The notes below the pieces were generated by a model, which worked only from the letters and a program-made list of their open reading frames with translations, was not told the DNA's origin and ran no database searches. A program made the translations under genes and the position numbers. From assembly GCA_016190205.1 (NCBI GenBank), contig JACPQZ010000045.1:1-33922 (forward strand): a DNA stretch of 33,922 bases, written 5' to 3'. Position 1 is the stretch's first letter. The number at the start of each line of letters is the position of its first letter. Shown here one piece after another: positions 638 through 33,922 of the stretch. The DNA is from Candidatus Omnitrophota bacterium. GTDB lineage: Bacteria; Omnitrophota; JACPQZ01.

Positions 638-642
638 GGTTT

Positions 643-1023
643 ATGCAATATAAAACACCAAGTTATATTATGAAATATATGCTGGTGACCACTATTGTTG
701 GTGTCGTGGTCATTAGCCTTGGTTTTCGAATTTCTGTCGCAACCTCCGTTTACCTATTAATTTTTTGCCTTTCGATCAACAGTCTCCCACTGCTATGGTT
801 GTTTAAACACCATAAAGAAATAACTTCCACAAAAGATTTTTTTCGACAACTGCGCCAGACCTTCACGCCCGGACGTGTTGTTGCACTTATAACAGTTTTC
901 TTTTCTATCCCACTTGCGGGCGTTTTGTTGAGAAGCATTACTGCTCTCCCAGATAACATCCTGTCACCGATAGTGTTACTTTCGTTTGTTGCAGCATTAT
1001 ATTGCATTTTTCTCAGGAAATAG
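643..1023 (+). CDS. Four-TM hypothetical protein, candidate immunity protein for RHS cassette 1
   Basis: Starts 5 nt after the RHS stop, the usual place for an RHS immunity gene. The 126-aa product has about four hydrophobic segments (residues 12-32, 33-53, 77-97 and 104-123) with a basic loop between the second and third. It is clearly AT-richer than the RHS core, as expected for a horizontally exchanged tip/immunity pair. No family was recognised. An immunity role is inferred from position and from the hydrophobic nature of the adjoining tip. A related cassette at 5349-5699 appears to have lost this gene while keeping sequence resembling its stop-codon region. Confidence 0.55.
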   Translation: MQYKTPSYIMKYMLVTTIVGVVVISLGFRISVATSVYLLIFCLSINSLPLLWLFKHHKEITSTKDFFRQLRQTFTPGRVVALITVFFSIPLAGVLLRSITALPDNILSPIVLLSFVAALYCIFLRK

Positions 1024-1035
1024 CCGTCAGTGTAA

Positions 1036-1065
1036 GTATAAGCGGTATAAGCGGTATAAGCGGTA
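1036..1065. repeat. Short tandem repeat, 9-bp unit, three copies
   Basis: The unit GTATAAGCG is repeated exactly at 1036-1044, 1045-1053 and 1054-1062, followed by GTA. It sits between the cassette 1 partner gene and the left end of the transposase element, and its last copy runs into the CGGTACC end motif of that element. Confidence 0.8.
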
Positions 1066-1774
1066 CCTGTTCTAAACGTGCCAGGTTCACATCGTCTCAA
1101 GTGCTTCCCCCACCCAATCCTCATACGGGTCATGCAGTTTCAAAAACTCCTGATAGCGCTGTTGTCGTTCCAAGTGAGTGGAGCCTAACTCGGCATAGTA
1201 AAGATTCTCAGTTAAGACAGGATCCGGCCTTCCTAACCCATAGTAGCGAGCGCTGGACCAGGGGTAGTCCGTGGGCTGGGTGACGAGGTGAGCCTTAAGA
1301 GGATTGCGCTCGATATACCGGCCGCAATGGAGGTAGTAGCTTTCCGCCTCGATCCGGGGGCTTTTGTAACGCCCTTGAAAGAGATGGCCCATCACGTGGT
1401 ACTTTTTCTTGTACCATCTTACATATCCGAGCTGCACCGCATGCATGAACCGGACGAGGTCCGGCGCCTTCCGGATCTGCATCAAGAGGTGGTAGTGATT
1501 GCCCATGAGGCAGTAGTGAAAGATATCCGTCTTTAAGTGATCCCGGGCTTGAGTTAAGAGGGTATGGAATTGCTCAAAGTCCTCGGGGTCTTTGAAGATC
1601 TGCGTCCGGTTGTTGCCCCGGTTAAAGATATGGTAGACTCCTTCATCGGTTAATTCACGGCTCTTTCGTGGCATCGGGTATCCTCCTTTAAAGGGGGACA
1701 GTGACCCCCACCCATATAGATGCCGAAATGAGCTTCGCGATTGCATGAACCTGGCACTTTTGTAGACGGTACCG
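1061..1774. mobile_element. RAYT (Y1 transposase) element with imperfect terminal inverted repeat
   Basis: The transposase gene is bracketed by complementary ends. Left end: CGGTACC (1061-1067), 10 nt, then GTGCCAGGTTCA (1078-1089). Right end: TGAACCTGGCAC (1746-1757), 10 nt, then GGTACCG (1768-1774). The two conserved blocks match perfectly as inverted repeats at identical spacing, and the 10-nt middles match partly. No target duplication is seen, as is usual for HUH/Y1 elements. The left inverted repeat overlaps the stop codon of the transposase; the right one runs into the truncated RHS frame. Confidence 0.65.
1087..1674 (-). CDS. REP-associated tyrosine transposase (Y1_Tnp / TnpA-REP family)
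   Basis: The 195-aa product has the HUH metal site as HYH at residues 60-62 (context LMGNHYHLL) and a probable nucleophilic Tyr84 in GYVRWYKKKY, followed by the family motif GHLFQGRYKS and the ending YIERNPLKA..YPWSSARYY. These are single-strand DNA transposases of the IS200/RAYT group that act on palindromic REP-like ends. The start at 1674 is fixed by a strong Shine-Dalgarno sequence (TAAAGGAGGA on the minus strand, 1681-1690); the frame continues upstream to 1929, but that part overlaps RHS coding sequence and has no such site. The gene looks intact. Confidence 0.88.
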   Translation of the reverse strand: MPRKSRELTDEGVYHIFNRGNNRTQIFKDPEDFEQFHTLLTQARDHLKTDIFHYCLMGNHYHLLMQIRKAPDLVRFMHAVQLGYVRWYKKKYHVMGHLFQGRYKSPRIEAESYYLHCGRYIERNPLKAHLVTQPTDYPWSSARYYGLGRPDPVLTENLYYAELGSTHLERQQRYQEFLKLHDPYEDWVGEALETM

Positions 1775-2871
1775 TAACTTCTCCCAAACCTCAAGCCCTG
1801 CCCGTGGCCGATTCCCTTGCTCCCTTGGTGCAAGGTACCGACTATGACGAGGTGCTTGAGTGGAATCCGGGGACAGGCGAGTATCAACCTGCTGCAAACC
1901 TGGTGCCCGGCCAGGCCTACTGGCTCCATACCCTACGCCCCACGGACCTGGTCCTTACGCCTCCCGCCCAGCACGCGATTACGTACTCCTACAACGGGGA
2001 CGGGCTGCGAGTAGCCAAGACGGTGCAGGGCGTGACTACCCGGTACCTCCACGATGGCTTGGAGGTCCTGGGGGAGATCAATGGAGTGGGAACGCTTATC
2101 CAAAGCTACGTCCACGGCCCCCGGCTGGATGAAGTCCTGGCCTCCCGGGAGGCTTCAACCGGAAAGACCCTCAACCCCTTGATCGACCCCCTGGGCTCGG
2201 TGATCGCCCTGGTGGACGAAAGCCAAACCGTCCAGGCCACTTTCACCTACTACGCCTTCGGCTCGCTCCTTGAAAAAACCGGCTCCTCGGACACCTCTTT
2301 CCGCTTCACGGGCCGGGACTGGGATGCCGAAAGCGGCCTCTACCACCTGCGGGCCAGGGGCTATGACGCCCGGGTGGGGCGGTTTCTCCAGCAAGACCCC
2401 TGGCCGCGCACTCCCGCTGACCCCCGTTTGATCGCGTTACGTTACCTGGCCGGCCTGACAGCTGCCCGGCATCCGGTGCCGGGGGCAGCACGAGGCGCCT
2501 TACCAGCAAAGCACACAACCGCTCTTTCCATTGCCCAGACCGGTTTCCTCCTCAACCCCCTGGGCCTAAACGCATACCCCTATGTCACCAATAATCCTCT
2601 GAGATGGCTCGATCCGTTTGGCCTAGAGGGTAGTGCAAATACTCCGGGAGATAACGGGGACAAAGGTTATTATGCTAGTGAAGATGGAGGATTTGGAGAA
2701 GGTCACCCTGGGAGCGGAGGCGACTACGGTGGTGAGGGTGGAGGATTTGGGGGAGGGCCTGGAGGGCATGCCGGCGGAGGTGATTACGGTGGCGGGGGCG
2801 GAGGATTTGGAGAAGGTCACCCTGGGAGCGGAGGCGGCTACAGCGGTGGAGGTGGAGGATTTGGAGTATAA
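1741..2871 (+). CDS. RHS/YD-repeat protein fragment (cassette 2) with glycine-rich tip, 5' truncated
   Basis: The frame opens at 1732 inside the right end of the RAYT element. The only early start is TTG 1741 without a ribosome site, so this is probably a headless RHS gene rather than a complete one. Residues about 1-80 are a segment of unclear origin (EWNPGTGEYQP, PGQAYWLHTL). YD-repeat core follows (SYNGDGLRVAKTVQG to RGYDARVGRFLQQDP), then a linker of about 50 residues and YVTNNPLRWLDPFGLEG. The last 80 residues are a Gly-rich tail with repeated GGFGEGHPGSGG units, unlike a typical enzyme toxin. It may be a structural tip or may have expanded from a short repeat. The core from 2107 matches cassette 3 from 3672. 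Confidence 0.72.
   Translation: MHEPGTFVDGTVTSPKPQALPVADSLAPLVQGTDYDEVLEWNPGTGEYQPAANLVPGQAYWLHTLRPTDLVLTPPAQHAITYSYNGDGLRVAKTVQGVTTRYLHDGLEVLGEINGVGTLIQSYVHGPRLDEVLASREASTGKTLNPLIDPLGSVIALVDESQTVQATFTYYAFGSLLEKTGSSDTSFRFTGRDWDAESGLYHLRARGYDARVGRFLQQDPWPRTPADPRLIALRYLAGLTAARHPVPGAARGALPAKHTTALSIAQTGFLLNPLGLNAYPYVTNNPLRWLDPFGLEGSANTPGDNGDKGYYASEDGGFGEGHPGSGGDYGGEGGGFGGGPGGHAGGGDYGGGGGGFGEGHPGSGGGYSGGGGGFGV
2686..2852. repeat. Internal direct repeat encoding the glycine-rich RHS tail
   Basis: A stretch of about 50 bp beginning GGAGGATTTGGAGAAGGTCA occurs at 2686 and again at 2800, exactly 114 bp (38 codons) apart, with shorter related GGAGG/GGCGG units between. It encodes the GGFGEGHPGSGG repeats. 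The in-frame spacing suggests expansion by slippage or unequal exchange. Confidence 0.75.
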
Positions 2872-2883
2872 TACCGAATAGAT

Positions 2884-3633
2884 ATGTGGTGCCCACGCTG
2901 CCAAAAGCCAGTCATCTATTATGCTGAGCAATCTCAAGGTATGAAGGTGATCTATTGTCAGGAATGCCTTTACTCATTGTTTGCTGAACCCCTTGAGGCT
3001 GTTGAAGAATCCGCCCCTGACAAAAGTGGGTTAGAGTACATCTACTATAAAATACAAGGCGCTTCATTTAGCGAGTTAAAACAAGACATTTTCGATCGCC
3101 GGGGGCCTTTAACGTCCAATGGGCAGAGAGTCTCCTTCTACACGTGCTTCCATCTTCGGTGGAAATACGATTCCACGTATACATTGAAGCTTCAAGACAG
3201 CGATGACACAGTGGTTCTTGCTGTCGCATTCAAAAATATCGTTATTTCCATATCCCACAAGACGACCGCACCAGTTCTTGGCGATGCCGTAAAACTGCCT
3301 TCCCGAGATCTAGATTTGTGGCAGAGATATTTTGACAAGCTAAAACAACACGAGCTTGATCACGTTAGCATTTCCTCGGATTCGAAGACATTAGAGGTTC
3401 TGAAAACAGAGGTCGCCTCGATAAAGGAGGTTAAATTTGGATTTAACAATCTGCCCCCAAGGAGCAAGTCTCTGGCGGGAGATATTATCGCTTTAGCAGT
3501 TAACACTGTTGGTAACAAGTACACCTCACTGATCCAGAAGCGATATGAATTGTTTGATGAGCTGACGAAAAACGGTGAGGAAGATTACAATAAAGATGAG
3601 GTTATAAGGAAAGTGTTCGAAGCGACTATATAG
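2884..3633 (+). CDS. Zinc-ribbon protein with DUF922-like putative metalloprotease domain
   Basis: This 249-aa product starts 12 nt after the cassette 2 RHS stop, in the partner-gene slot. An N-terminal zinc ribbon has Cys pairs C3/C6 and C25/C28. The rest resembles DUF922, a predicted zinc-dependent protease family: an IYYKIQGASFSEL opening, a GP motif, the W-Y stretch LRWKYD, and a metal-binding-like HELDH at residues 156-160 following WQRYFDKLKQ. No signal peptide or TM segment is seen. Codon use is AT-richer than the RHS core. It could be a companion effector, a processing protease or an immunity protein; the sequence does not decide. DUF922 is assigned by pattern only. Confidence 0.6.
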   Translation: MWCPRCQKPVIYYAEQSQGMKVIYCQECLYSLFAEPLEAVEESAPDKSGLEYIYYKIQGASFSELKQDIFDRRGPLTSNGQRVSFYTCFHLRWKYDSTYTLKLQDSDDTVVLAVAFKNIVISISHKTTAPVLGDAVKLPSRDLDLWQRYFDKLKQHELDHVSISSDSKTLEVLKTEVASIKEVKFGFNNLPPRSKSLAGDIIALAVNTVGNKYTSLIQKRYELFDELTKNGEEDYNKDEVIRKVFEATI

Positions 3634-3634
3634 A

Positions 3635-3645
3635 GTGCCGGGCAC
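3635..3645. repeat. Short REP-like palindrome ahead of RHS cassette 3
   Basis: GTGCC-G-GGCAC is a perfect 5-bp-arm palindrome directly after the DUF922 gene and 27 nt before RHS homology resumes. It shares its GTGCC start with the ends of the RAYT element at 1061-1774 and could be a REP-type target or end remnant. Weak on its own. Confidence 0.35.
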
Positions 3646-3671
3646 CCAGGGGACAGGTCACTCTTCACACT

Positions 3672-4613
3672 TACGTCCACGGCCCCCGGCTGGATGAGGT
3701 CCTGGCCTCCCGGGAGGCTTCAACCGGGGAAACCCTCTACCCCTTGACCGACCCCCTGGGTTCGGTGATCGCCCTGGTGGACGAAAGCCAAACCGTCCAG
3801 GCCACTTTCACCTACTACGCCTTCGGCTCGCTCCTTGAAAAAACCGGCTCCGCCGACACCTCCTTCCGCTTCACGGGCCGGGACTGGGATCTCGAAAGCG
3901 GCCTCTATCACTTGCGGGCCAGGGGCTATGACGCCCGGGTGGGGAGGTTTCTCCAGCAGGACCCCTGGCCGAGGACGCCGGGGGATCCGAGGATGATCGG
4001 CTTACGTTACCTGGCCGGCCTGGCCCAAGCCCGGCACCCGGTGCCGGGGACATCGCACTTATTATTACCGGCTAGCTTGCCTTTGGTGAATGTCCACATG
4101 CAAAGAGCTTTCTTACAACGCCCCCTGGGGCTCAATTCATATCCTTTGGTCTACAATAACCCACTTAATGCTGTCGATCCTTTAGGAACAAATGGAATCG
4201 TGGTAGTAGGGGGAGGGAGTGCAGAGGCGGGGGTGGGGCCAGGGTATAGCGCGGGCGCTTACCAAAGTGGCGGTATAGGTTTTATTGGCCGTAATGTTAG
4301 GACGGCTGGGCTTTTCGGGTCTTCGGGAAGCTTTTTGAGCAATGCCCTAAGTGGCTCAGCAGGTGCGTTTGGGGGTGTGTCAGTGGGCCTTGGCTACACC
4401 ACAGCTAACTCTGTATCAGATCTAGGGGGAGCTGGCACAACGTACACACTCAACGCCTCTGCAGGGGTCTACGGCCTGACTATTCAGGTGACGGTTGGTA
4501 ATAACGGCGTAACGACGGTGACTGTATCTCCGGTCGGTATGGGTTTTGGAGTCAGCTACAGCGAAGTGCGCATCGAAACAAGCACGGTATCTTTATTTGA
4601 AAGGAAAAAATAA
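3672..4613 (+). pseudogene. Orphan RHS C-terminal cassette 3 (core end plus Gly/Ser-rich tip), no start
   Basis: Homology to cassette 2 starts abruptly at TACGTCCACGGC (3672; 2107 in cassette 2) and stays in register, with YAFGSLLEKTG 143 bp further on in both. The frame is open throughout, but only a TTG at 3744 could start it and nothing supports that, so this is a displaced RHS C-terminus. Such orphan ends are known to act as donors that swap tips by recombination with a full RHS gene. After YNNPLNAVDPLG comes a tip of about 140 residues rich in Gly, Ser, Ala and Thr with alternating hydrophobics (GGVSVGLGYTTANS, TIQVTVGNNGVTTVTVSPV), which looks like beta-rich, perhaps membrane-interacting, protein. 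No family was recognised. Confidence 0.72.
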
Positions 4614-4616
4614 AAC

Positions 4617-5309
4617 GTGGTTGAAAATTTTCCTCGATCTACCTTCATCTTTATTGTGTCGGTCGTCGGTTGTATCGTCTGGTTTTACCAATTATTGCGC
4701 GGACAGGGAACTTTTCGCTATTATGACCGCTTTAGGACCTTGTACAAGATCGAACAAGGGCAAGTAAGGATTTGCATATTACTCAAGTTTTGCATACAAA
4801 GAATCAATATATCTGACATCCAGGAAATCAAGTATTTTTCAGCGGTCCCGAACAAATTCGCAACTTGGCTTGATGCGGACCACTTGGAAAATGGGTTGTG
4901 GAGGCCCGTTGTCTACATCAAGGCGCTGGTAGGCAAGAGACGAAAACCCCGAATCTTTCTCATGACCCCTGTCGCCTTGGACATTGATGATTTCATTGAG
5001 ACCGTGAGAGAGCAAAAGCAAACCGGCAACTTCACCAATCCGGGTTGTTACAAAGCCACTTTGCCGTATCGGGAGGATATGCAACGAATTGCAGACAGAA
5101 ACGGCATATTTAAAACGATAGCTTTTCTTGTGCCGTATGGTGCAACGAGTTTAGAATTACTTTTGGCCATGTTTGCGCTAGCGGCTAGGGGAGAGATAGT
5201 CTGGTTATTGATTCCTTTCTTTTTTCTCATATCCTTTGGATCCAACTTCATAGAACTGTCTTTACAATGGCACTATCTTTTGGGAAAAAGACGTCTTGGC
5301 CATTCTTAG
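4617..5309 (+). CDS. Membrane protein of unknown family, candidate partner of RHS tip 3
   Basis: GTG start 3 nt after the cassette 3 stop, with AGGA about 11 nt upstream, so the two are coupled. The 230-aa product has one N-terminal TM segment (about residues 8-26), a soluble middle of about 130 residues with a beta-rich look reminiscent of small PH-like membrane domains, and two C-terminal TM segments (about 165-215). Position next to a beta-rich RHS tip suggests an immunity protein anchored in the inner membrane. Like the other partner genes it is AT-richer than the core. Confidence 0.5.
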   Translation: MVENFPRSTFIFIVSVVGCIVWFYQLLRGQGTFRYYDRFRTLYKIEQGQVRICILLKFCIQRINISDIQEIKYFSAVPNKFATWLDADHLENGLWRPVVYIKALVGKRRKPRIFLMTPVALDIDDFIETVREQKQTGNFTNPGCYKATLPYREDMQRIADRNGIFKTIAFLVPYGATSLELLLAMFALAARGEIVWLLIPFFFLISFGSNFIELSLQWHYLLGKRRLGHS

Positions 5310-5348
5310 CATACAGTAAAAACGAGGGCGGTTCTACGTTCTCCGACG

Positions 5349-5699
5349 CCGCCTTCGGCTCGCTCCTTGAAAAAACCGGCTCCGCCGACACCTCCTTCCG
5401 CTTCACGAGCCGGGACTGGGATGCCGAAAGCGGCCTCTACCACCTGCGGGCCAGGGGCTATGACGCCCGGGTGGGGCGGTTTCTCCAGCAAGACCCCTGG
5501 CCGAGGACGCAGAATTGGAGATGCCGTCGAAATCTATGCGCGATGGAGAGCGGCTGAGGCTATCTCATTAACGGGAATCGGTTTTGAGGCTGGTGCAATC
5601 GCGCTACATAGAATTCCTCACCCCACGGCGCAGCTACTCGCCTTTTTCCTAGACGTAGCAGCTGTTGGATCGGGAAATAGCCGCAGTGTTAATATTTAA
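5349..5699 (+). pseudogene. Degraded RHS cassette 4, frameshifted relative of cassette 1
   Basis: Core homology runs from about 5349 to 5510 and the tip resumes at once at 5511 with sequence homologous to the cassette 1 tip (ARWRAAEAISLTGIGFEAGA). The join falls at GCCGAGGACGC, an 11-mer that cassette 1 has twice, at 154-164 and 384-394. Loss of the 230 bp between them explains the structure and the frameshift (230 is not a multiple of 3). After GCTGTTGGA (5661-5669) the sequence jumps to GGAAATAGCCG (5673), which in cassette 1 is the stop region of the partner gene (1016), so that gene is gone too. No functional product is expected. Confidence 0.8.
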
Positions 5700-25360: not shown

Positions 25361-25388
25361 TACTGCGTACAGCGTTCTGCGTACTGCG
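25361..25388. repeat. Heptad repeat array, four units
   Basis: TACTGCG, TACAGCG, TTCTGCG, TACTGCG follow each other without gaps. It lies between the convergent ends of the HD-GYP and XRE regulator genes. The same words occur in the larger array at 27731-28002. Confidence 0.75.
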
Positions 25389-25395
25389 CCAAGAC

Positions 25396-25878
25396 TCACA
25401 GACTCAAAATACCCCAGACATGCAACACCTTTGCAGGAATGTGCCCCCTGTTCAGGAAGAGCAAAGCCCTCTCGCCTTTAAAGCTCAAGGAATTTCCCTT
25501 TAGAAGCCGATACACGCCGCGACCCAACTTGACCCTGACTTCTCCCTCCAGACACCAGACGAGGCGCTCGGTCCCTCTCCCGGTCTTTTGGATCTCGCCC
25601 TCTTCTCCAGGGGCCAGAGGCACGCACTCATGGTGCAAACGGTATACGGGTCCTTTGGAACAGGATGGAACCCTTTGTCCAGCGAATTCCTGGTACAAAT
25701 CGCCCAGCCCCAGCCTTAAGGCCCGCGCAATCTTGACGTGGGATTCCAAAGTCCCTGTCATGCGCTGGTTTTCAAGCCGGGAAAGCGTGGCCAGGTCCAC
25801 CCGCGCCTTTCGGGAAAGCTCCTGAAGCGTCATCCCCATCTGCTTCCTGACCTTGCGGATCCTATGACCTATTTTCAC
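25396..25878 (-). CDS. XRE-family transcriptional regulator with cupin-like C-terminus
   Basis: The N-terminal 60 residues form a helix-turn-helix: VKIGHRIRKVRKQMGMTLQE, LSRKARVDLATLSRLENQ. The C-terminal half (about 85-160) is a small beta-barrel of the cupin_2 type (LAPGEEGEIQ, WCLEGEVRVKLG, LLKGNSLSFKG, LHVWGIL) that could sense a ligand. The frame reaches GTG 25908, but that codon sits at or before the predicted transcription start (-10 at 25914-25909). GTG 25878, with GGGAG about 10 nt upstream, is the better start (160 aa). Confidence 0.85.
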   Translation of the reverse strand: MKIGHRIRKVRKQMGMTLQELSRKARVDLATLSRLENQRMTGTLESHVKIARALRLGLGDLYQEFAGQRVPSCSKGPVYRLHHECVPLAPGEEGEIQKTGRGTERLVWCLEGEVRVKLGRGVYRLLKGNSLSFKGERALLFLNRGHIPAKVLHVWGILSL

Positions 25879-25908
25879 GATAGAGGGCTCCCGGTAAAGA
25901 AACACCAC

Positions 25909-25937
25909 AATATATACCGTCTAGACGATTTAGTCAA
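25909..25937 (-). promoter_or_regulatory. Promoter of the XRE regulator with operator-like palindrome in the spacer
   Basis: On the minus strand: TTGACT (25937-25932), 17 bp, TATATT (25914-25909). The spacer contains the perfect 10-bp palindrome CGTCTAGACG at 25918-25927, a natural place for autorepression. Confidence 0.6.
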
Positions 25938-25972
25938 AGAGCAAACTAATTTACAGAATCAGCAAATATCTG

Positions 25973-26002
25973 TTGATTCAAAAGCCATGCTCCTGTTAAG
26001 AT
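25973..26002 (+). promoter_or_regulatory. Possible promoter of the beta-propeller gene
   Basis: TTGATT (25973-25978), 18 bp, TAAGAT (25997-26002). Moderate match only; the leader of about 70 nt ends in AAGAGGT before ATG 26078. Confidence 0.3.
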
Positions 26003-26077
26003 ACCCGTCGCCTTCCCTGATGTGCAGCCCTAGTTAATCGACTGTCCGCAGTTTAACTCCCCAAGAGGTACCTTAAG

Positions 26078-27721
26078 ATGAGAATCCCAATCCATTTAAA
26101 GATTTCCCTGGCCATGCTGCTCGCCGGGTCCCTGGCCAGGCCCTCCGGTCTTGCGGCGGGTCCCGCGTGGGAAGATAGAACAGAAGGGCTTTTTCAAGCC
26201 GACACGACCGCCGTGGCTATAGGATCGGACGAAAACCCCGCCGTTTACGCCGCCACCGCAGACGGCTCCCTGTACCAAACGACAGGCGCAGGGCCTTGGA
26301 GGCGTGTAGCCTTGGAAATACCTGCCGGGACCCGCGTTTATAAACTCAAGCTCGACCCCGCGCTGCCCGGAACACTCTATGCTGCAACCGGACATGGCCT
26401 TTATGCCGTTACGGAAAACCGGGCTCGTCAAGTCTTTGCGGGACCGCCCGGCGAGGATGCGGTTACCGCGGTAGCATTAAACCATGCGGGTGAGACAAGG
26501 CGCATCTACGCGGGGACCTCCCGGGGGCTCTACATCCTTGATTCCGATGAGCGTATGTGGAGAAGGAGCGGAGGCGAGTTGGGCGAAAGGCCCATCGGGG
26601 ATATCGCCGTGCACCCCCTCAATCCCAGGACCGTGCTCGTCGCCACGGACCATGAACTGTGGAGGAGCGTGGATCGGGGACTTCATTGGGAGAAGAGGTT
26701 TGCCATGACGCAGGACCACGAGCGGGAGGAAACTCGCGCTGATGCGGCAGACGAAGCGGCGGCGGATGCCGATGCGCTTCAGCCCCGGATTCACACCATC
26801 CTCTTCTGGACCTCGGACCCCGACCGGGTCTACCTGGGCACAGAAAAAGGCGTATTCTTCTCTCAAGACCTGGGCGAAACCTGGGAACATATCCCCGAAC
26901 AAGGGCTCCTCGACCGCAACGTAAAGACTTTAACGACACTGCCGCAGAGCGATGACCGGATGCTGGCCGGTACGGAGGCGGGAGTTTTTGCAGGAGATGC
27001 CAGGCTGGGTTCCTGGAGGGAATTTTACAAGGGGATGACGGCGCGCGACATACGAGGTCTTGCGGTGACCCGGATAGGTCCAACCCGCGTCTGGGCCGCC
27101 ACCGAGAACGGTGTCTTCCTATATGATCCGGAGACCGATCTTGAGCGGCTGAATCTCTATCACGAGATAAAACCGGTCCAGCTCGGCCTGGGTGCGGACG
27201 AGCTTTTGGATGCCTTTTCGTTTGAACCCGAAATCCAAGAGGTGCAGGAGGCTGCCATCCGGTATGCGGAGGTACACCCCGATAAAATCCTCCATTGGCG
27301 CCGGAGGGCTCGCCTGGCGGCCTTCATGCCGGAGCTGGGGCTGGGCTGGGACCGGACGCGCACCGTTGAGATCGACCGCGGCGGGACCAACGACCCGGAC
27401 ACCTTTATTCTGGGTCCGGAGGAGAAGGGGGTTGACGTGAGCTTTAGCTGGGACATAGCCAAGCTCATCTGGAACGACGACGAGACATCCATCGACACGC
27501 GCTCAAAACTTATGGTCCAGCTGCGCGACGACATCCTGGATGAGGTCAACCGCGTCTATTTCGAGCGCCGGAGGATTCAGACGGAGGTCTACTTAAGTCC
27601 TGCCCAGGATGTCCAGGAGGAGGTGGACCGGCGCCTGCGCGTGGAAGAGCTTACCGCACAGTTGGACGGCTTAACAGGGGGCTATTTCACCGGCACTGTA
27701 GAAAGAAATGTGAGAAATTAA
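26078..27721 (+). CDS. Secreted beta-propeller (BNR/sortilin-like) protein with conserved C-terminal domain
   Basis: A signal peptide (residues 1-27) leads about 330 residues of propeller blades with repeated strand patterns: VYAATADGSLYQT, LYAATGHGLYAV, IYAGTSRGLYIL, VLVATDHELWRSVDRGLHWEK, VYLGTEKGVFFSQDLGETWEH, MLAGTEAGVFAG, VWAATENGVFLYD. These include Asp-box-like turns. An acidic Ala-rich loop interrupts the middle. The C-terminal 170 residues form a separate domain (AIRYAEVHPDKILHWRRRAR, VSFSWDIAKLIWNDDETSID, LRDDILDEVNRVYFERRRIQ) that looks helical and envelope-associated. I know no function for it. Located at the cell surface or periplasm. Confidence 0.75.
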   Translation: MRIPIHLKISLAMLLAGSLARPSGLAAGPAWEDRTEGLFQADTTAVAIGSDENPAVYAATADGSLYQTTGAGPWRRVALEIPAGTRVYKLKLDPALPGTLYAATGHGLYAVTENRARQVFAGPPGEDAVTAVALNHAGETRRIYAGTSRGLYILDSDERMWRRSGGELGERPIGDIAVHPLNPRTVLVATDHELWRSVDRGLHWEKRFAMTQDHEREETRADAADEAAADADALQPRIHTILFWTSDPDRVYLGTEKGVFFSQDLGETWEHIPEQGLLDRNVKTLTTLPQSDDRMLAGTEAGVFAGDARLGSWREFYKGMTARDIRGLAVTRIGPTRVWAATENGVFLYDPETDLERLNLYHEIKPVQLGLGADELLDAFSFEPEIQEVQEAAIRYAEVHPDKILHWRRRARLAAFMPELGLGWDRTRTVEIDRGGTNDPDTFILGPEEKGVDVSFSWDIAKLIWNDDETSIDTRSKLMVQLRDDILDEVNRVYFERRRIQTEVYLSPAQDVQEEVDRRLRVEELTAQLDGLTGGYFTGTVERNVRN

Positions 27722-27730
27722 ACGATCGTA

Positions 27731-28002
27731 CAGCGTACTGCGTACTGCGTACAGCGTGGAACGTGAAGCGTGGAGCGGATAGCATTTAGCGAATAGCGTT
27801 TAGCGGATAGCGTGTAGCGTATAGAATAACCCCCCCTTTTTTCCTATACGCTCTCCGCTCTACGCTATACGCTAATCGTTGCACGCCTAACGCTGTAAGA
27901 ATCCTGCTCGCCCCGACGTGACGCAGTACGCACGACGCAGTACGCTGTACGAATCTTGCTCGCCCCGACGTGACGCTGTACGCACGACGCAGTACGCAGT
28001 AC
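27731..28002. repeat. Large heptad repeat region forming inverted arms, with a 52-bp tandem duplication
   Basis: This fills the 316 bp without a gene between 27722 and 28037. From 27731, thirteen consecutive 7-bp units follow nnGCGnn (CAGCGTA, CTGCGTA, AAGCGTG, TAGCGTT, TAGCGTA and variants) to 27821. After a spacer with a C run and a T run, complementary units (CTACGCT, ATACGCT, nACGCnn) run from 27844. The arms nearest the spacer pair closely (AGCGTATAG / CTATACGCT). A 52-bp segment at 27899-27950 is repeated with a few changes at 27951-28002. The RNA would form a long hairpin, perhaps ending transcription of the propeller gene. Confidence 0.8.
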
Positions 28003-28037
28003 GAGCATTGATGATCTCCGTATGTTAAAATACGCGC

Positions 28038-29243
28038 ATGCGGCAGAAATTATTCTGTCTGTGGGTGGTGACCGCGGCCATCGCCTGCGCTGGGCTGGCG
28101 GCATATCTCACCGCCCACTATTATTTTGTCCTCAAGGGCACCCTCTTCACCGGAGGCCCCTGTTCGGACCGCGGAATCTTCGACTGCAGTTCCGTTGCCT
28201 TTAGTGAGGCCGGCTCCCTCTGGGGTCTGCCCATCGCGCTCTATGGGCTGATGCTGTACTTAGGGGTTGCCATCCTGGGACTCCTGGCCCTCGGTTCCGG
28301 GGAAGACTTAAGGCGCGCGGCCCTGTCCCTCGTATGCGCGGTCGCCGCCTGCATGACCGTTTACGATGCGTACCTATTGTGGGTCATGTTCTTTAAGATC
28401 AAGGCGATCTGCATATTTTGCTTAGCGACCCACGCGTTAAATCTCGCCCTGCTGATTTCCCTTTTGGTCTTCCTCCGGCCTGTCCGTCTCGGACGATTTC
28501 TGAGCGACGGAATCGGCCTCTTCCGGTTCCGAATAGGGGCGGGGGGAATGGGCCTTGCCTGGCTTATCACTGGCTTTGCATTGGCCATGCTTACCCTGGG
28601 CGTGGGCGGAGGAATCCTGACCCGAGGGCTCATACTGGGAGACACAGATGAGATGCGGGCTTTCTTCGAACACCAGCTTAAACAGCAGACCCCCGTAGTG
28701 ACCGCGAAGGGGGACAATCCCAGCAAGGGGGCAACTCAACCGCGGATCGAGATCGTCAAATTCAGCGACTTCGAATGCCCTTCCTGCAGGCGCGCCTCGC
28801 GTTACTTAAAACTCGTCCAGGCCCGCTATCCGAACGAGGTATCCATCACCTACAAGAATTTCCCCCTCGATTCATCCTGCAACGCGTTTGTCAGGAACCG
28901 CGTCCATCTGCGGGCCTGCCGTCTGGCGCTCATGGGAGAGTGCGCCTTCAAGCAAAACCGCTTTTGGGAGTATCATGACACGGTATTTAGACTGGGGGCG
29001 GATTCCCCGGTTGACAAAATAGAAGGGGAACTGAAAAAGGCAGGATTAAATGTGATAGAGCTTAAGTCATGCGCTGAAGGCCGCGAGGCCTGGCAAGCCC
29101 TTCAGTCAGACGTCCAGGAGGCCGCGGCGCTTGCGGTTGACACGACGCCCACACTCATTATTAATGGATATCATTTTCAAGGAGACCTCCCTCCCTGGTC
29201 TCTGGAAATACTCATGCAACTTTTGCTGGAAAAAAAGACCTAG
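28038..29243 (+). CDS. VKOR-DsbA fusion, disulfide bond-forming oxidoreductase
   Basis: The N-terminal VKOR domain (residues 1-150, four or five TM) has the loop cysteines C42 and C50, the LWGLPIALYGLM turn and the active-site CIFC (125-128), which reduces quinone. A linker TM (about 175-195) leads to a periplasmic thioredoxin/DsbA domain with CPSC (247-250, SDFECPSCRRAS) and the cis-Pro region DTTPTLIINGYHF. The fusion both oxidises and recycles, replacing separate DsbA and DsbB. ATG 28038 follows the repeat region with no ribosome site; translation may be leaderless. Confidence 0.92.
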   Translation: MRQKLFCLWVVTAAIACAGLAAYLTAHYYFVLKGTLFTGGPCSDRGIFDCSSVAFSEAGSLWGLPIALYGLMLYLGVAILGLLALGSGEDLRRAALSLVCAVAACMTVYDAYLLWVMFFKIKAICIFCLATHALNLALLISLLVFLRPVRLGRFLSDGIGLFRFRIGAGGMGLAWLITGFALAMLTLGVGGGILTRGLILGDTDEMRAFFEHQLKQQTPVVTAKGDNPSKGATQPRIEIVKFSDFECPSCRRASRYLKLVQARYPNEVSITYKNFPLDSSCNAFVRNRVHLRACRLALMGECAFKQNRFWEYHDTVFRLGADSPVDKIEGELKKAGLNVIELKSCAEGREAWQALQSDVQEAAALAVDTTPTLIINGYHFQGDLPPWSLEILMQLLLEKKT

Positions 29244-29244
29244 G

Positions 29245-29796
29245 CTAAGAAGCGCCTCTCATGGTTTGAGCCGCCCCGAAGAAAAGCCCGCCCATCAGGG
29301 CCGCAAGTCCCACGATGATGGCTACCATAATAAGCCACCCGATGACGACCACCGCGACAGCGCGTCCGGTGCTCGTGTAGTCCAAGGTTTGCCGGACGGC
29401 AACCACCATGCTGACGATCATCCAGATAGTGGCCGCGAGTCCCACAAGGACCCGAAGTGGCGGGATGACCCCCAGCACCCGTATGACTCCCGGTGAGCTG
29501 GCAAATCCTAAGGTGCGGAGCATCTCACTGAAGTTTGCTTTTGTCTGCGGGGTGGCAAGGAAGCGAGTGCCTACAAAATAAGTAAGGAAGGCCCAGACAA
29601 ACCACCCGATGAGGGCGCCGACTGCGCTCGTTAAGATTCCCACTACGCCCAGGGTGCTAAACATCCCAATACCAGCCGCGGCGCTTGATATAAGCACGGC
29701 GAGCATCGCCTGTCCCATCGCGGATGTATCCTGTTCTACTTCCTCATAAAGCTGAACATCGAGTCTCGCAGCACGCAGCATGCGCTGGATGAGCAC
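29245..29796 (-). CDS. Yip1-family membrane protein
   Basis: The 183-aa product has a short amphipathic start (LIQRMLRAARLDVQLYEEVE) and five hydrophobic segments (about 28-48, 50-78, 108-128 and two between 140 and 178). WFVWAFLTYFVGTRFL and the charged QTKANFSEMLRTLGFASSPG between segments are typical of the bacterial YIP1 family, whose function is unknown. GTG start at 29796 is confirmed by GGGAGG six nt upstream. A perfect -10 TATAAT lies at 29843-29838 on this strand. Convergent with the VKOR-DsbA gene, with one base between their stops. Confidence 0.8.
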   Translation of the reverse strand: MLIQRMLRAARLDVQLYEEVEQDTSAMGQAMLAVLISSAAAGIGMFSTLGVVGILTSAVGALIGWFVWAFLTYFVGTRFLATPQTKANFSEMLRTLGFASSPGVIRVLGVIPPLRVLVGLAATIWMIVSMVVAVRQTLDYTSTGRAVAVVVIGWLIMVAIIVGLAALMGGLFFGAAQTMRGAS

Positions 29797-29879
29797 TGTC
29801 CACCTCCCTTTGGTTTGACCGGTTCCTGCGGATACCCATTATAACCGAACGGCTGGAGAAAAAGGAAGCATCAGGCATA

Positions 29880-30266
29880 TCATTTTTTCGGTTGGTGAAC
29901 GCCGCATGTTCCCTCCGGGCACTCCTTCGCGTTGAGCCTGTAACGGTTCCGGGCCACCAGGCGGTAGGCCCCGTTTGAAATCTGCCTGACTGCCGGCAGA
30001 TAGTATGCCCAGACCAAAAACCTTAGCAGGGCGTGGTCATGGATTGCCCGCACGACCGCTTCCATCCCGCCCGATATACGGCCATCAGGCTCAACCAGCT
30101 TGAGCTCCCGCATGCATTCTTCAAAGGTAAGCTTCGGAAACCGGTCCAAAGCGCCCTTTTCCTGAAAGGAGACCAGTTCGATCCCAGGTCCCGCGAGCCG
30201 GGAGATTTTCCCGGCCTGGGCGCGGCAAAAGGGGCAGTGTCCGTCATAAAGCAAAAATCCTTTCAA
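29880..30266 (-). CDS. Thiol-disulfide oxidoreductase of the DCC (DUF393) family
   Basis: The 128-aa product opens with FLLYDGHCPFC (CPFC at residues 11-14), the DxxCxxC signature of the family, and continues with GIELVSFQE, MRELKLVEPDGRISGGMEAV, LVWAYYLPAVRQISNGAYRL and a final CPEGTCG that adds two Cys. TTG start at 30266 has AGGAGGG 5-6 nt upstream; no ATG fits. These proteins are assumed to handle thiols or bind membranes. Together with VKOR-DsbA it makes a small redox neighbourhood. Divergent from the gene at 30335. Confidence 0.88.
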   Translation of the reverse strand: MKGFLLYDGHCPFCRAQAGKISRLAGPGIELVSFQEKGALDRFPKLTFEECMRELKLVEPDGRISGGMEAVVRAIHDHALLRFLVWAYYLPAVRQISNGAYRLVARNRYRLNAKECPEGTCGVHQPKK

Positions 30267-30289
30267 ATCACCCTCCTTGTGAGAACGCC

Positions 30290-30320
30290 TTTATTCTATC
30301 ATAGGGAGATGCTAGAATAA
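30290..30320. promoter_or_regulatory. Overlapping divergent promoters on an inverted repeat
   Basis: TTATTCTA (30291-30298) and TAGAATAA (30313-30320) are perfect inverted copies 14 bp apart. Each contains TAGAAT as a -10 facing outward: plus strand 30313-30318, with TTTATT 17 bp upstream; minus strand 30298-30293. Each -35 lies on the other promoter's -10, so the two should exclude one another. Confidence 0.42.
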
Positions 30321-30334
30321 TTCGCGGAGGATCC

Positions 30335-31348
30335 GTGAAACTCAAACAAAAGTATCGTTACGAATTGGATCCCTTGAACCGGCTGGTCATACGATCACCG
30401 CGGGCCCCGGGCTCGCCTTTAAGACCGGTGCACATCGTAGACGGGACTTATGAGATCGGCCCGGGCAATACGCTCGCCTGGCAAGCCAGCACCCGTGAGG
30501 GCACGCCGCTTCATAGGGTGATTTTCACAGGGACCTGGTCTCTCACCCGGCGCCATGAGCTCGCGCTCACCTTGGAACGCTCTAAAACACAAGTCTTCGG
30601 CGACACCCTGGTCTTTAAAGGGGAGGTGGGGGAACCGGAGGCACAGGGCCTCGCGTTTACCGCGCGAGGGGGAATAGCCCCAGGCGGGCAAAAAAAGCAG
30701 GTACTCCGGCTTGAGGGAACCTGGCAGGCCGATCCGCGCAACCGGCTGGTTTTTCTCGCGCAAAGGGGAGGGGAGCGGGGCCCGCATCCCATCACCCTGG
30801 AAGGGACCTGGGAAATAGGAGCCGGACACCAAATTCTTTACCGTTATGAGACTTCTAAAGCCGGGCGTCGGGAAGAGAGGACGATCCAGTTTGCGGGAAG
30901 CTGGTCCCTCACCCAAGAGAACCGCCTCGACTATCTGCTCGAAAAATCCGGCCGCTCCGCATTCCGCTTCCGCGCAAAGCTTGAACATGCCCCGCTGATG
31001 GCCCATGTCCACACCATCCCCTTTGCGGTCTCGATCGAGCTCAAAAACGGGCGGAGGGTCAGAAGACGAGTGTCGCTTACCGGCCAGTGGAAGGTGAGGC
31101 CGGCATTTGACGTCACTTTTGAGCTGGACTATGGGGGCGGCCGTATAGAGACCCTGCGCTTTGCGAGCTCCATACGCCTGAACACGAAGGATCAAATCGT
31201 TTTGGAACTAAAGGCCCAACGCGGCGAGCCCGTTGGGATAGAGCTTGCTTTTCTGCGCCGGTTTTGGCGGGATGCGGAGTTCTTCGTTAAACTGCGGCGG
31301 GAAGCAGACAACACCGCAGTCGAAGCAGGGGCAAGGGTACCTTTTTAA
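30335..31348 (+). CDS. Repetitive beta-strand protein of unknown function
   Basis: The 337-aa product is built of about seven related units with the core G-(T/S)-(W/Y)-x(5-8)-L-x-(Y/F/L): VDGTYEIGPGNTLAWQ, FTGTWSLTRRHELALTLE, LEGTWQADPRNRLVFLA, LEGTWEIGAGHQILYRYE, FAGSWSLTQENRLDYLLE, LTGQWKVRPAFDVTFELD and a worn seventh. Each gives a beta hairpin, which suggests a beta solenoid, sheet or barrel. No signal peptide is seen and the protein is basic. GTG start with GGAGG (30326-30330) 4 nt upstream. Followed by a heptad repeat region. Confidence 0.7.
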   Translation: MKLKQKYRYELDPLNRLVIRSPRAPGSPLRPVHIVDGTYEIGPGNTLAWQASTREGTPLHRVIFTGTWSLTRRHELALTLERSKTQVFGDTLVFKGEVGEPEAQGLAFTARGGIAPGGQKKQVLRLEGTWQADPRNRLVFLAQRGGERGPHPITLEGTWEIGAGHQILYRYETSKAGRREERTIQFAGSWSLTQENRLDYLLEKSGRSAFRFRAKLEHAPLMAHVHTIPFAVSIELKNGRRVRRRVSLTGQWKVRPAFDVTFELDYGGGRIETLRFASSIRLNTKDQIVLELKAQRGEPVGIELAFLRRFWRDAEFFVKLRREADNTAVEAGARVPF

Positions 31349-31355
31349 ATAAGTA

Positions 31356-31525
31356 ACCAGATACCAGTAACCAGTTACCAGATAGATACCAGAAACCAGA
31401 TGCCAGGGCCATGCGTTTAGCAAATTGTTTTTCAGGTGTTAACCTTTCTTCAGCTTCTTGCTTTGACCTTTTTCTGGTTTCTGGTATCTGGTATCTTCTG
31501 GTTTCTGGTCACTGGTTTCTGGTAT
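31356..31525. repeat. Heptad repeat pair forming an inverted repeat (ACCAGNN / CTGGTNN)
   Basis: The left array at 31356-31406 has units ACCAGAT, ACCAGTA, ACCAGTT, ACCAGAT, a 4-nt break, ACCAGAA, ACCAGAT, GCCAG. The right array at 31474-31525 has the complementary CTGGTTT, CTGGTAT, CTGGTAT, a 3-nt break, CTGGTTT, CTGGTCA, CTGGTTT, CTGGTAT. About 67 bp lie between. The RNA would fold into a long imperfect hairpin between the repeat-protein gene and the zf-HC2 gene. Confidence 0.82.
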
Positions 31526-31545
31526 CTTTAGTAATGAGGTGAATG

Positions 31546-31689
31546 ATGCACCCGAGCGAAAATGAACTTAAGGACTATTTTGAAGGAAGGCTCAAGGGCG
31601 AACCCTTTCGCAGGGTGGACGACCATATTCAATCTTGTCCGGATTGCCAGGACACCCTGGCCTCCCTCCAACAGCTTCCGCCGGACTAA
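31546..31689 (+). CDS. 47-aa putative zinc-finger (zf-HC2) protein
   Basis: ATG 31546 has GAGGTG (31535-31540) as ribosome site and ends at TAA 31687. The product carries the zf-HC2 signature H27-x3-C31-x2-C34 (DDHIQSCPDC) after ELKDYFEGRL, as in the zinc-binding head of anti-sigma factors. There is no membrane or sigma-binding tail; it is only the head domain. It lies 8 nt before the GH1 start at 31698. It may regulate, or be a remnant of a larger anti-sigma or kinase protein. Confidence 0.6.
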   Translation: MHPSENELKDYFEGRLKGEPFRRVDDHIQSCPDCQDTLASLQQLPPD

Positions 31690-31697
31690 GAAGACCA

Positions 31698-32924
31698 GTG
31701 CCTTTTCCGCCGGACTTTCTCTGGGGATCAGCCACTTCCGCCCACCAGGTTGAGGGCAATAATACCTCTTCAGACTGGTGGGCGTGGGAGCAGGAAGGGC
31801 GTGTCCCCTTCAAATCCGGCCTGGCCTGCGATCATTTCAATCGCTACGACGAGGATTTTGATCTCGCCCGCGACTTCGGCCAAAACGCCCACCGCTTTTC
31901 CATCGAATGGGCCCGGATAGAACCGCAGGAAGGCTGTTTTTCCGACGAGGCCATCCGGCACTATACGCAGGTGATCGCCTCTTTAAGGAGGCGGGGGCTG
32001 GAACCCTTCGTCACCCTTCACCACTTTACCAATCCCAAATGGTTTCAGGAGAGGGGCGGCTGGGTACACCGCCGCGCGCCCTTTTTTTTCAAACGCTACG
32101 CGGCGCAGATGGCTCAGTCCTTCAAAGGCCAAGTCCGCTTCTGGATCACGATCAACGAGCCTCTCGTCTACGTTTACCAGTCTTATCTTGCCCGCATATG
32201 GCCTGCCGATCAAGTGGGCATACGTGCCGCCTTGTCCGCGCTATTCCATTTTGAAGAGGCACACAGGGCCGCCTTTGATCTATTACATCAGGTTCAAATG
32301 AAAGGCGGGGGAGGGGAATCCGTTCAGGTGGGCGTCGCGCAAGCCATCCGGCTTTCATCCCCTTGCAAAGAAAGTTGGCTTCCGGACCGTGCGGCCTCGT
32401 ATTTGAGGGATTATGCCTTTAATACGCTTTTTTTGGACCGTCTCACGCGCCGACGAGCACTTGACTTTATCGGGATCAATTATTACACCCGGGACTTCGT
32501 TCATTGGGGGGGGAAGGGGCTGCTCTCCTTGTTCGGGGAGGTTTGTCCCAATGCCCATGCGCACACCCGCACGCCGCGCAGCGCCTTGGGCTGGGAAGTA
32601 TACCCCGAAGGTCTATATAAAACTCTTTTGCGGCTCAAGAAATACCACCTGCCTCTCTACGTCACTGAAAACGGATTCGCAACCGACGACGACGCCGAGC
32701 GCGAGGAGTTTATTAAGGACCACCTGACTTCAGTGCGCAGGGCACTGGAGGCAGGGACTCCGGTCAAAGGGTATTTCTACTGGTCTCTATTGGATAACTT
32801 TGAATGGGCGGAGGGGACACGCCCTCGTTTCGGCTTGGTGGAAGTGGATTTTCAGTCCTTAAGGCGCGCGGCGCGCCCCAGTGCGCGACGGCTTAGGGAG
32901 ATTATATTGACAGAAATTGGATGA
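31698..32924 (+). CDS. GH1 family glycoside hydrolase (beta-glucosidase-like)
   Basis: The product opens PFPPDFLWGSATSAHQVEGN and has the acid/base Glu154 in TINEPLVY and the nucleophile Glu324 in YVTENGFA (numbered from GTG 31698), plus ALDFIGINYYTRDFV and GYFYWSLLDNFEWAEG for the sugar site. GH1 retaining enzymes cleave beta-glucosides or galactosides. At 408 aa it is shorter than the usual 440-480, with a reduced middle. GTG 31698 starts just at the conserved N-terminus; the frame runs back to TTG 31635 inside the zf-HC2 gene. No signal peptide, so it is cytoplasmic. Confidence 0.9.
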   Translation: MPFPPDFLWGSATSAHQVEGNNTSSDWWAWEQEGRVPFKSGLACDHFNRYDEDFDLARDFGQNAHRFSIEWARIEPQEGCFSDEAIRHYTQVIASLRRRGLEPFVTLHHFTNPKWFQERGGWVHRRAPFFFKRYAAQMAQSFKGQVRFWITINEPLVYVYQSYLARIWPADQVGIRAALSALFHFEEAHRAAFDLLHQVQMKGGGGESVQVGVAQAIRLSSPCKESWLPDRAASYLRDYAFNTLFLDRLTRRRALDFIGINYYTRDFVHWGGKGLLSLFGEVCPNAHAHTRTPRSALGWEVYPEGLYKTLLRLKKYHLPLYVTENGFATDDDAEREEFIKDHLTSVRRALEAGTPVKGYFYWSLLDNFEWAEGTRPRFGLVEVDFQSLRRAARPSARRLREIILTEIG

Positions 32925-32935
32925 TGCGATATACT
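32907..32935 (+). promoter_or_regulatory. Promoter of the ferredoxin-rhodanese pair inside the GH1 3' end
   Basis: TTGACA (32907-32912), 17 bp, TATACT (32930-32935). Transcription would start near 32942, giving a leader of about 45 nt that ends in GGAGGGGG before ATG 32987. Confidence 0.68.
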
Positions 32936-32986
32936 AGGTTTCAGCTCTGGACTATGATTGTAACTTCAATAAATGGAGGGGGTTAG

Positions 32987-33298
32987 ATGGCCTACGTTAT
33001 TACAGATAAATGCCTGGGCGAGCGCTACGCCACCTGTGTCGCAAGCTGCCCGGTGGAATGCATTCATCCCGGCGAATACCAGGGGCAGGTATTTATGGTG
33101 ATTCATCCGGAGACCTGCATCGATTGCGGCGCGTGCCTTCCGGAATGCCCCATCGGCGCCATCGTTGAGAACACCGATCAGTCCCCGGATTGGGCCAAGG
33201 TAAACGCAGAGCTCGCTTCCACTTGGAAGGACAACCCGCCCGTGCCGGAGCGGCCCCGCAACGATCCCCCTAAGAAACCGACGAACAAACTGGTCTAA
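32987..33298 (+). CDS. Ferredoxin with two iron-sulfur clusters (7Fe/8Fe type)
   Basis: Residues 1-60 carry two cluster motifs. The first has C9, C17, C21 and C25 (CLGERYATCVASCPVECIH), the arrangement of FdI-type ferredoxins with a [3Fe-4S] or [4Fe-4S] centre. The second has C44, C47, C50 and C54 (CIDCGACLPECP), a standard [4Fe-4S] site. The C-terminal 40 residues form the usual charged, Pro-rich tail. It is a soluble electron carrier. Own promoter at 32907-32935, strong ribosome site, and the rhodanese gene 24 nt downstream. Confidence 0.92.
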   Translation: MAYVITDKCLGERYATCVASCPVECIHPGEYQGQVFMVIHPETCIDCGACLPECPIGAIVENTDQSPDWAKVNAELASTWKDNPPVPERPRNDPPKKPTNKLV

Positions 33299-33322
33299 CC
33301 CTAAAACAAAGAGGACGTTCCC

Positions 33323-33856
33323 TTGAGCCTTCCAGAGCTAACGAAGATGATGACGATGGAAAAGGTTCTTGAGCTTTATCCGGCTGCGCAACGAGCCCTT
33401 TTTCAGAAATACCACATCGGGGGCTGTTCCAGCTGCGGTTTTAGTCCGCAGGACACCCTCGAGACGGTCTGCCAAAACCATGACCAGAATCCCGAGGAGG
33501 TCATCGAGCATCTCAAGAAAAGTTATGAACTGGACGAGGAGCTTCAGATTGCGCCGGTTCAGGCGCGGGATCGCTTGACTGCTGGGAACGGGGCGCGGTT
33601 CATCGACGTCCGGGACGAGCATGAGCACGCGCTTGCCCGGATCGAGGGTTCGAAACTCGCTACACAGGAGCTCGTTGAGGAGATGATGCGGAGCTGGCCC
33701 AAGGACACCCTGATCATTGTTTACTGCCATTATGGAAACCGGAGTCTGGATGCCGCGGCCTACCTCATTGGGCATGGCTTTAAGAACGTGAAGAGCCTGA
33801 AGGGCGGGATCGATGCCTGGTCCCGGGAGGTGGATCCCAAGGTGCCGCGCTACTAG
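33323..33856 (+). CDS. DUF1858-like plus rhodanese domain protein
   Basis: Residues 1-75 are a DUF1858-like helical domain: TMEKVLELYPAAQRALFQKY, then HIGGCSSCGFS with a CxxC, then TLETVCQNH. Residues 80-177 are a rhodanese domain: ARFIDVRDEHEHALARIEGS, and the active Cys in IVYCHYGNRSLDAAAYL, then VKSLKGGIDAW. Rhodaneses carry sulfur as a Cys persulfide. The pairing with a ferredoxin suggests sulfur relay or iron-sulfur maintenance. TTG start with GAGG 8 nt upstream; ATG codons at 33347 and 33350 are alternatives. Confidence 0.88.
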   Translation: MSLPELTKMMTMEKVLELYPAAQRALFQKYHIGGCSSCGFSPQDTLETVCQNHDQNPEEVIEHLKKSYELDEELQIAPVQARDRLTAGNGARFIDVRDEHEHALARIEGSKLATQELVEEMMRSWPKDTLIIVYCHYGNRSLDAAAYLIGHGFKNVKSLKGGIDAWSREVDPKVPRY

Positions 33857-33879
33857 AAATCACGCGCCCTCACTAAAAT

Positions 33880-33922
33880 CCAAGTACCCACTCGCAAATA
33901 AGCACCAAATTCCAAGCACCAA
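33880..33922. repeat. Heptad-type repeat (CCAANNN) at the window end
   Basis: CCAAGTA at 33880-33886, then after 18 nt the consecutive units CCAAATT (33905-33911), CCAAGCA (33912-33918) and CCAA, which runs off the window. It has the same 7-bp period as the arrays at 25361, 27731 and 31356. Confidence 0.55.

Follow-up and report, generated by a model that had tools for sequence, protein, structure and literature searches.

What are the degenerate 7-bp repeats that stand between the genes of a Candidatus Omnitrophota bacterium, and why do they keep one period when their words differ? The question was raised by contig JACPQZ010000045.1 (assembly GCA_016190205.1), whose first 33,922 of 127,966 bases are referred to here as the window; the genome comprised 1.65 Mb and was 92.8% complete. 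The initial annotation had described four intergenic arrays in the window and had proposed slippage on a hairpin template or a structural use at gene ends. The present analysis indicated that the arrays are probably the arms of short dispersed palindromic foldback elements, which would form a class independent of the heptad word and similar in position to repetitive extragenic palindromic (REP) elements. Fifty-eight genomes including this one were compared, and its nearest kinship to the rest was at the level of the phylum.

Period-7 arrays in the genome and the window

Maximal-segment scoring revealed six period-7 segments in the window. No other period between 4 and 30 gave more than two segments, harmonics and phase-shifted multiples of the arrays aside, and five Markov shuffles of the window gave none at periods 5–10. 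In 363 kb of the genome sampled regardless of repeats (87% coding by gene calls), 89 period-7 arrays were found at score 11, and 37 of them had an inverted partner within 250 bp. Periods 5, 6, 8–13 and 15 yielded at most six arrays each and no inverted partner; the harmonic period 14 yielded 68 arrays, 21 of them with an inverted partner. At score 12, 78 period-7 segments were obtained, 66 of which lay mainly outside called genes, which bears out the excess that the initial annotation had expected in other intergenic DNA. The window together with 20 further stretches (281 kb) contained 62 period-7 segments and at most five at each of the periods 4–6, 8–13 and 15–20; most of the remaining peaks fell on a multiple of 7 or stood 3 or 4 above one. 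A chance origin of the arrays was ruled out by the shuffles and the period comparisons.

The heptad words of this genome included ACCAGWW, GTACWGC, TAGCGNN, CGTGAWT, TTCGNNT, CGTGGGA and AGACCCG. Several words coexisted per genome, each with a fixed core and two free positions. All four arrays were located where the initial annotation had placed them, and the following features were delimited in the window.

25361–25388, strand not assigned: single four-heptad arm (TACTGCG, TACAGCG, TTCTGCG, TACTGCG) between convergent genes
27727–27757, plus strand: outer left GTACWGC arm, beginning 5 bp past the stop codon at 27721
27787–27817, plus strand: inner left arm, four TAGCGNN heptads followed by TAG
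27844–27874, minus strand: inner right arm of 31 bp, reverse complement of TAGCGNN heptads
27921–27951, minus strand: 31-bp ACGCWGT arm within copy 1 of a 52-bp direct repeat, mirroring the outer left arm
27973–28003, minus strand: 31-bp ACGCWGT arm within copy 2 of the 52-bp direct repeat
31353–31406, plus strand: left (11-type) arm of the CCAG element, four ACCAGWW heptads, an 11-base step and three heptads
31407–31473, strand not assigned: loop of the CCAG element, 67 nt
31474–31526, minus strand: right (10-type) arm of the CCAG element
33880–33922, plus strand: start of a CAAATNN/CCAANNN array that runs beyond the window end

Mirrored arms had been reported for two of the four sites; the mirroring was confirmed, and the count was raised to three. 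The exception was the arm at 25361–25388, which fell below the segment-score cut-off and was detected by Tandem Repeats Finder (score 42). It lies between an open reading frame ending at 25336, which we take to be HD-GYP-like, and a minus-strand frame ending at 25396, presumably XRE-like. The structure at 27727–28004 was nested: an outer GTACWGC/ACGCWGT pair, whose left arm forms the left end of the period-7 segment 27727–27824, enclosed the inner TAGCGNN pair, and the right side of the outer pair was doubled as a 52-bp direct repeat (27890–28004). The array at 33880 was followed, in the next 100 bp of the contig past 33922, by a mirrored ATTTGNN array as judged by eye. Upstream of the CCAG element, the gene ended at 31348. 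RNA folding of 31340–31545 gave −91.1 kcal/mol (z −11.3), with short helices interrupted by mismatches about every 7 nt. Rfam covariance models gave no match at gathering score in the window, and a known Rfam RNA family was ruled out on this basis.

Arm architecture and the dispersed CCAG element

Arm lengths peaked at 30–33 bp, which corresponds to four heptads plus three bases and is well above the shortest detected lengths (18–24). Arrays of 30–33 bp made up 56 of 160 in this genome, 64 of 151 in other Omnitrophota and 48 of 191 in a set of mixed phyla. Each heptad consisted of a nearly fixed 5-bp core and two free bases. The window sub-arms at 27844–27874, 27921–27951 and 27973–28003 were all 31 bp long. 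TAGCGNN arrays were found in 69 of 285 Omnitrophota genomes, and in the seven such genomes that were read the arms had the form (TAGCGNN)x4+TAG, 31 bp, and were often mirrored. Eighteen TAGCG pairs parsed from eight genomes had loops of 6–119 nt.

When the arms were folded on each other, the free bases often faced a mismatch. In the outer units of the CCAG arms, facing free-dinucleotide positions matched at 62 of 182 compared with about 94 by shuffling, and whole facing dinucleotides were identical in 6 of 91 cases compared with 23.6 expected. In the two middle units of the 18 TAGCG pairs, identity was found in 1 of 36 cases compared with 6.6 expected (P about 0.009, an optimistic value because the copies share ancestry and independence is overstated). 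Continuous complementarity of the free bases was rejected on the strength of these mismatches.

The sequence at 31353–31526 was identified by its copies as one member of a dispersed element. In 472 kb of the genome parsed for CCAG arms, the arm pattern consisted of four units spaced 7 bp apart, a single 10- or 11-bp step, and three further units again at 7, which can be read as a 31-bp block joined to a 24-bp block. The 10-step pattern was exact in 29 arms and the 11-step pattern in 9; with extended arms trimmed to their first six steps, the numbers were 33 and 11, giving 44 arms. Core letters deviated at 8 of 1380 positions, a figure favoured by the exact CCAG seeds of the parser, and the W positions were off the column consensus at 174 of 690.

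The stretches examined contained 23 complete CCAG elements with loops of 9–365 nt, and 13 of these paired one 10-type with one 11-type arm, in both orientations. A hand count of a few elements gave nine with the B arm first and three with the A arm first relative to transcription. Two oppositely oriented copies, separated by about 2 kb, were 93% identical over 142 bp, with identity ending at the arms; a second pair was 93% identical over 255 bp, including nested outer CGTG arms. Elsewhere, the CCAG left arms of L259 (3969–5684) and L260 shared about 140 bp including the loop start, together with a near-identical flank, a local segmental duplication.

The two-block CCAG pattern was confined to this genome among the 285 genomes of the phylum, with 35 matches, and its reversed control had no match in them. 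The looser ACCAGWW pattern was found in 27 of the 285 genomes and also in many other phyla, at no fewer than 80 loci; among the 80 loci listed, 39 also held arrays that the filter did not score as CCAG, nearly all of them of other heptad words. In viral contigs the CCAG word was found in just 22 stretches.

Nesting was also observed in G188, where a GTCATTGCGAGCGAAG...-type palindromic repeat lay inside the loops of TAGCG arms (L296, 6195–6430 and 12260–12482), so that one palindrome is, on the letters, nested in another. The same GTCATTGCGAGCGAAG...-type palindrome adjoined a TAGTG array at L353 of G188.

Position at stop codons and at three operon junctions

The elements had also been thought to stand at gene ends, and their positions agreed. 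Twenty of the 23 CCAG elements lay between codirectional genes, a setting common here (94 of 104 spacers longer than 120 bp), and 13 of the 20 began no more than 8 nt from the upstream stop codon; in many, the next start codon followed a few bases downstream. In TAGCG elements, the stop codon of the neighbouring gene was often the first TAG of the arm (three of five in G260, three of four in G188).

Filled and empty sites were compared at three operon junctions in Omnitrophota family f5, the genes of which we take from their protein sequences to be EF-G, yebC, queA, tgt, infB and trpS. At EF-G/yebC, among 23 genomes, mirrored heptads were found in G260 (TAGCG), G303 (TAGTG) and G188 (TCGTT), other inserts in G298 and G108, and a lost gene order in G082. 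Sixteen genomes were empty, with the stop codon no more than 18 nt from the start codon and often overlapping it; these included G129 and G302, which belong to the same genus as G303. By eye, the filled junction of G303 reads TA-G...C-TA against its empty congener.

At queA/tgt, 16 of 23 genomes were scored, and seven were left out (start unrecognised or wrong match). Mirrored heptads were found in G260 (TAGCG), G309 (AAGTT) and G012 (CAGC), and partial ones in G188 (TAGTG with a nested element) and G026. G284 showed period 9, three genomes had other upstream sequence and seven were empty. At infB/trpS, a match was obtained in 26 genomes, of which 22 were examined; two of these were dropped, leaving 20. 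G260 (TAGCG), G309 (TAAGT) and G188 (CGTAT with nested arrays) were filled, 13 were empty and four had other upstream sequence. Sequence comparison at the three junctions thus showed that the word differed while site and layout recurred, and the view that a single period and paired layout is common to several words was upheld there as in the genome at large.

Mirrored inserts of 9-bp period were observed upstream of yebC (L310 of G308, by eye) and upstream of tgt (L341 of G284); because they share the same junctions, 7 is not the sole period of the mirrored layout. In several f5 genomes (L333–L362), two variable loops of QueA were also found to hold short in-frame heptad tracts with differing words. 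At L382 of G284, ACGAAGG heptads lay at the very start of the trpS frame, unlike the spacer position elsewhere.

Proposed mechanism and alternative explanations

According to the reading that we favour, an element would typically be a short loop flanked by mirrored arms, each of about 31 bp and made of four heptads and three further bases. The 5-bp core would pair with the facing core and the two free bases would tend to stay unpaired, so that the folded strand would be a ladder of 5–6-bp rungs with mismatches every 7 nt. The arm-length cluster, the fixed CCAG pattern and the end of homology at the arm ends argue for copying of a defined element. The elements are copied as whole units in both orientations, can nest in one another's loops and persist mainly within operons, in the interval from a stop codon to the following start codon. 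Defined ends, copying in both orientations, nesting, the position behind stop codons and one layout with many words were shown by the sequences. Since the word changes while the architecture stays, the folded shape rather than one sequence may be what is recognised or selected. Recognition or selection could act on single-stranded DNA while the element is copied, or on RNA past the stop codon. A mobilising enzyme would be expected; by analogy with REPs, the stem-loop would probably be met by the terminating ribosome and would part genes that formerly abutted.

Several results weigh against this reading. The empty sites come from another Omnitrophota family and not from the window's own loci. 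The mismatch signal was modest in the orientation-aware subset of 10/11 CCAG elements (38 of 104 matching compared with 45.5, P 0.019, likewise optimistic) and absent from the inner three CCAG units (75 of 128 matching). An in-register test over all words gave no consistent sign, with up/down counts of 24/33 in this genome, 17/30 in other Omnitrophota and 26/17 in mixed phyla. ACCAGAA arms of Thermoanaerobaculia were mostly fully complementary (26–30 of 30 in the L128, L166 and L190 pairs). The seeds of the arm parser push core conservation upward, some genomes carry long tandem heptad runs that resemble slippage, and no mobilising enzyme was found. No target-site duplication was found at CCAG elements (mean 1.39 compared with 1.34 for shuffled pairs, p 0.46), and a duplication of the kind left by classical transposons was rejected for this family.

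The elements also resemble miniature inverted-repeat transposable elements (MITEs), a possible prokaryotic counterpart of eukaryotic foldback elements, in being short and non-coding, with terminal inverted repeats and 23 complete copies in the stretches examined. If they are MITEs, they would descend from an ordinary DDE insertion sequence, with iterated transposase sites that occur by coincidence in its terminal inverted repeats. Their defined ends, both orientations, variable loops and genomic copies fit this origin, and the TA-G...C-TA junction of G303 is compatible with use of a TA target. However, the CCAG family has no target-site duplication, and four heptads common to unrelated words and loops down to 6 bp would be left unexplained; we regard this origin as fairly unlikely. 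The arrays might instead be heptameric simple-sequence repeats made by slippage, with inverted partners produced by template switching and a period set by polymerase geometry. An excess of heptameric simple-sequence repeats has been known since 2007 and is reported for many bacteria in the available text of PMC4692102, where slippage and G-quadruplexes are offered as causes and the polymerase-geometry hypothesis is ascribed to Mrazek 2007. Tandem intergenic 7-bp units are indeed the rule here (66 of 78 segments), the word drifts along some arrays (for example L022, 4860–4972), and runs with more than 10 overlapping matches were found in Clostridium bovifaecis and a Bacteroidales genome, where slippage probably lengthens some arrays. 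However, whole-unit copy number did not vary freely, as seen from the length peak at 30–33 bp and the fixed CCAG steps at scattered loci; homology between copies stops at the arms, and substitutions concentrate at the two free heptad positions. These features did not support the first proposal, in which the arrays would be generated chiefly by slippage on a hairpin template, and we consider a slippage origin unlikely.

Movement of REP-type elements by a Y1 transposase (REP-associated tyrosine transposase, RAYT), with the arrays as a long-stemmed variant of REPINs, the paired REP elements, would agree with the position behind stop codons and with the TAG stops supplied by TAGCG elements, as GTAG REP ends often do in the available portion of PMC3733652. 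Four Y1 homologues were present in this genome, one of them full-length in the window (1090–1794, minus strand), and Y1_Tnp was found in 232 of 285 Omnitrophota genomes; because of this frequency, Y1 transposases do not discriminate. The arms are not palindromes themselves, and the CCAG arm profiles have no CTGG and no GTAG foot; thus the 20–40 bp palindromic unit with a GTAG or CGTC tag was not found in them. A CGTCC heptad array follows one Y1 locus, a heptad array lies about 1.1 kb from another, and the remaining two of the four have none, while G209, with 28 TAGCG matches, is absent from the genomes with a Y1 match. Adjacency was therefore not consistent and a Y1/RAYT partner was rejected as a requirement; this explanation appears distinctly unlikely. 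Intrinsic terminators or attenuators at gene ends would account for strong hairpins directly behind stop codons. However, a run of at least five T within 14 nt downstream was found in only 1 of 20 elements, a terminator scan listed none at the arrays, and many elements separate codirectional genes and are followed within a few bases by a start codon. Gene-end terminators are very improbable and were rejected on the U-run count and the scan. A G-tract of at least three per unit, as a G-quadruplex would need, was absent from ACCAGWW, TAGCGNN, CGTGAWT and TTCGNNT and present in a few other words (for example CGTGGGA). Since most words have no G-tract, G-quadruplexes are not a general explanation.

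Among known systems, the closest to the foldback elements is that of the Xanthomonas GGGAATC heptamers, which have one word and the same anatomy. The GGGAATC and GGGGA(C/T)T repeats of Xanthomonas and Nostoc were described by Rehm et al. 2015 (PMC4692102). In the available part of that paper, these repeats have fixed and free positions, mostly four units and convergent pairs (70 and 75 cases); they are 89–93% intergenic, nearer the upstream open reading frame (mean 28 nt) and mostly between codirectional genes. They differ in having one G-rich word per genus, read as G-quadruplexes, whereas the elements described here mostly have no G-tract, carry several words per genome and show differing words at one junction in related genomes. 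The initial annotation drew a contrast with known heptamers as having a constant sequence; this contrast is not sharp, because Xanthomonas heptamers are degenerate too in the same account.

REPs are what the elements may most work like, by analogy and without the defining features of REPs. As far as the available excerpts describe them, REPs are intergenic palindromes of 20–40 bp with a GTAG or CGTC tag, present near stops in many copies and able to supply TAG stops (PMC3733652, PMC12306157), and ribosome stalling is reported for those lying no more than 15 nt from a stop codon (PMC12306157). The arms found here differ in being non-palindromic, heptad-periodic and at least 31 bp long, and the CCAG family has no tag. 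Cyanobacterial short tandemly repeated repetitive sequences and the TAACTGA repeats of Beggiatoaceae are likewise intergenic tandem heptamers in many copies, but TAACTGA repeats are mostly direct, lie upstream of starts and have one word in the accessible portion of PMC4679880. Rickettsia palindromic elements and bacterial MITEs are short dispersed palindromes as well. The former insert in frame into genes, of which the heptad tracts in QueA loops are reminiscent, and no heptad-built arms are described for either in the excerpt at hand (PMC10969869). No report of mirrored degenerate heptads with changing words was found in the open-licence literature searched.

It is possible, at less than even chances, that a broadly distributed superfamily of mobile hairpins is set by shape and not by sequence. 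If so, each arm would have four 5-bp rungs at a 7-nt pitch with facing spacers unpaired, the word would be replaceable and the stop-codon site kept, and the heptamers of Xanthomonas, perhaps also those of cyanobacteria, would count as special cases. The data suggest a single architectural class whose words change and which inserts at stop codons and parts abutting genes of operons. Such a class offers a testable explanation of why the period is 7 and why an arm holds four units; it also predicts an enzyme or an RNA-binding factor that reads shape rather than sequence.

Two further features were observed near the start of the window. A period-9 array (GTATAAGCG, 1036–1065) lay just beyond the end of the full-length Y1 transposase gene. 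The region 2–5600 contained repeated RHS/YD-type C-terminal core fragments (GSLLEKTG..FRFTGRDWD..GLYHLRARGYDARVGRFLQQDPWPRT) at 2–637, 1741–2871, 3744–4613 and 5267–5557, most of them followed by a different tail, which we take to resemble an array of displaced Rhs C-terminal tips.

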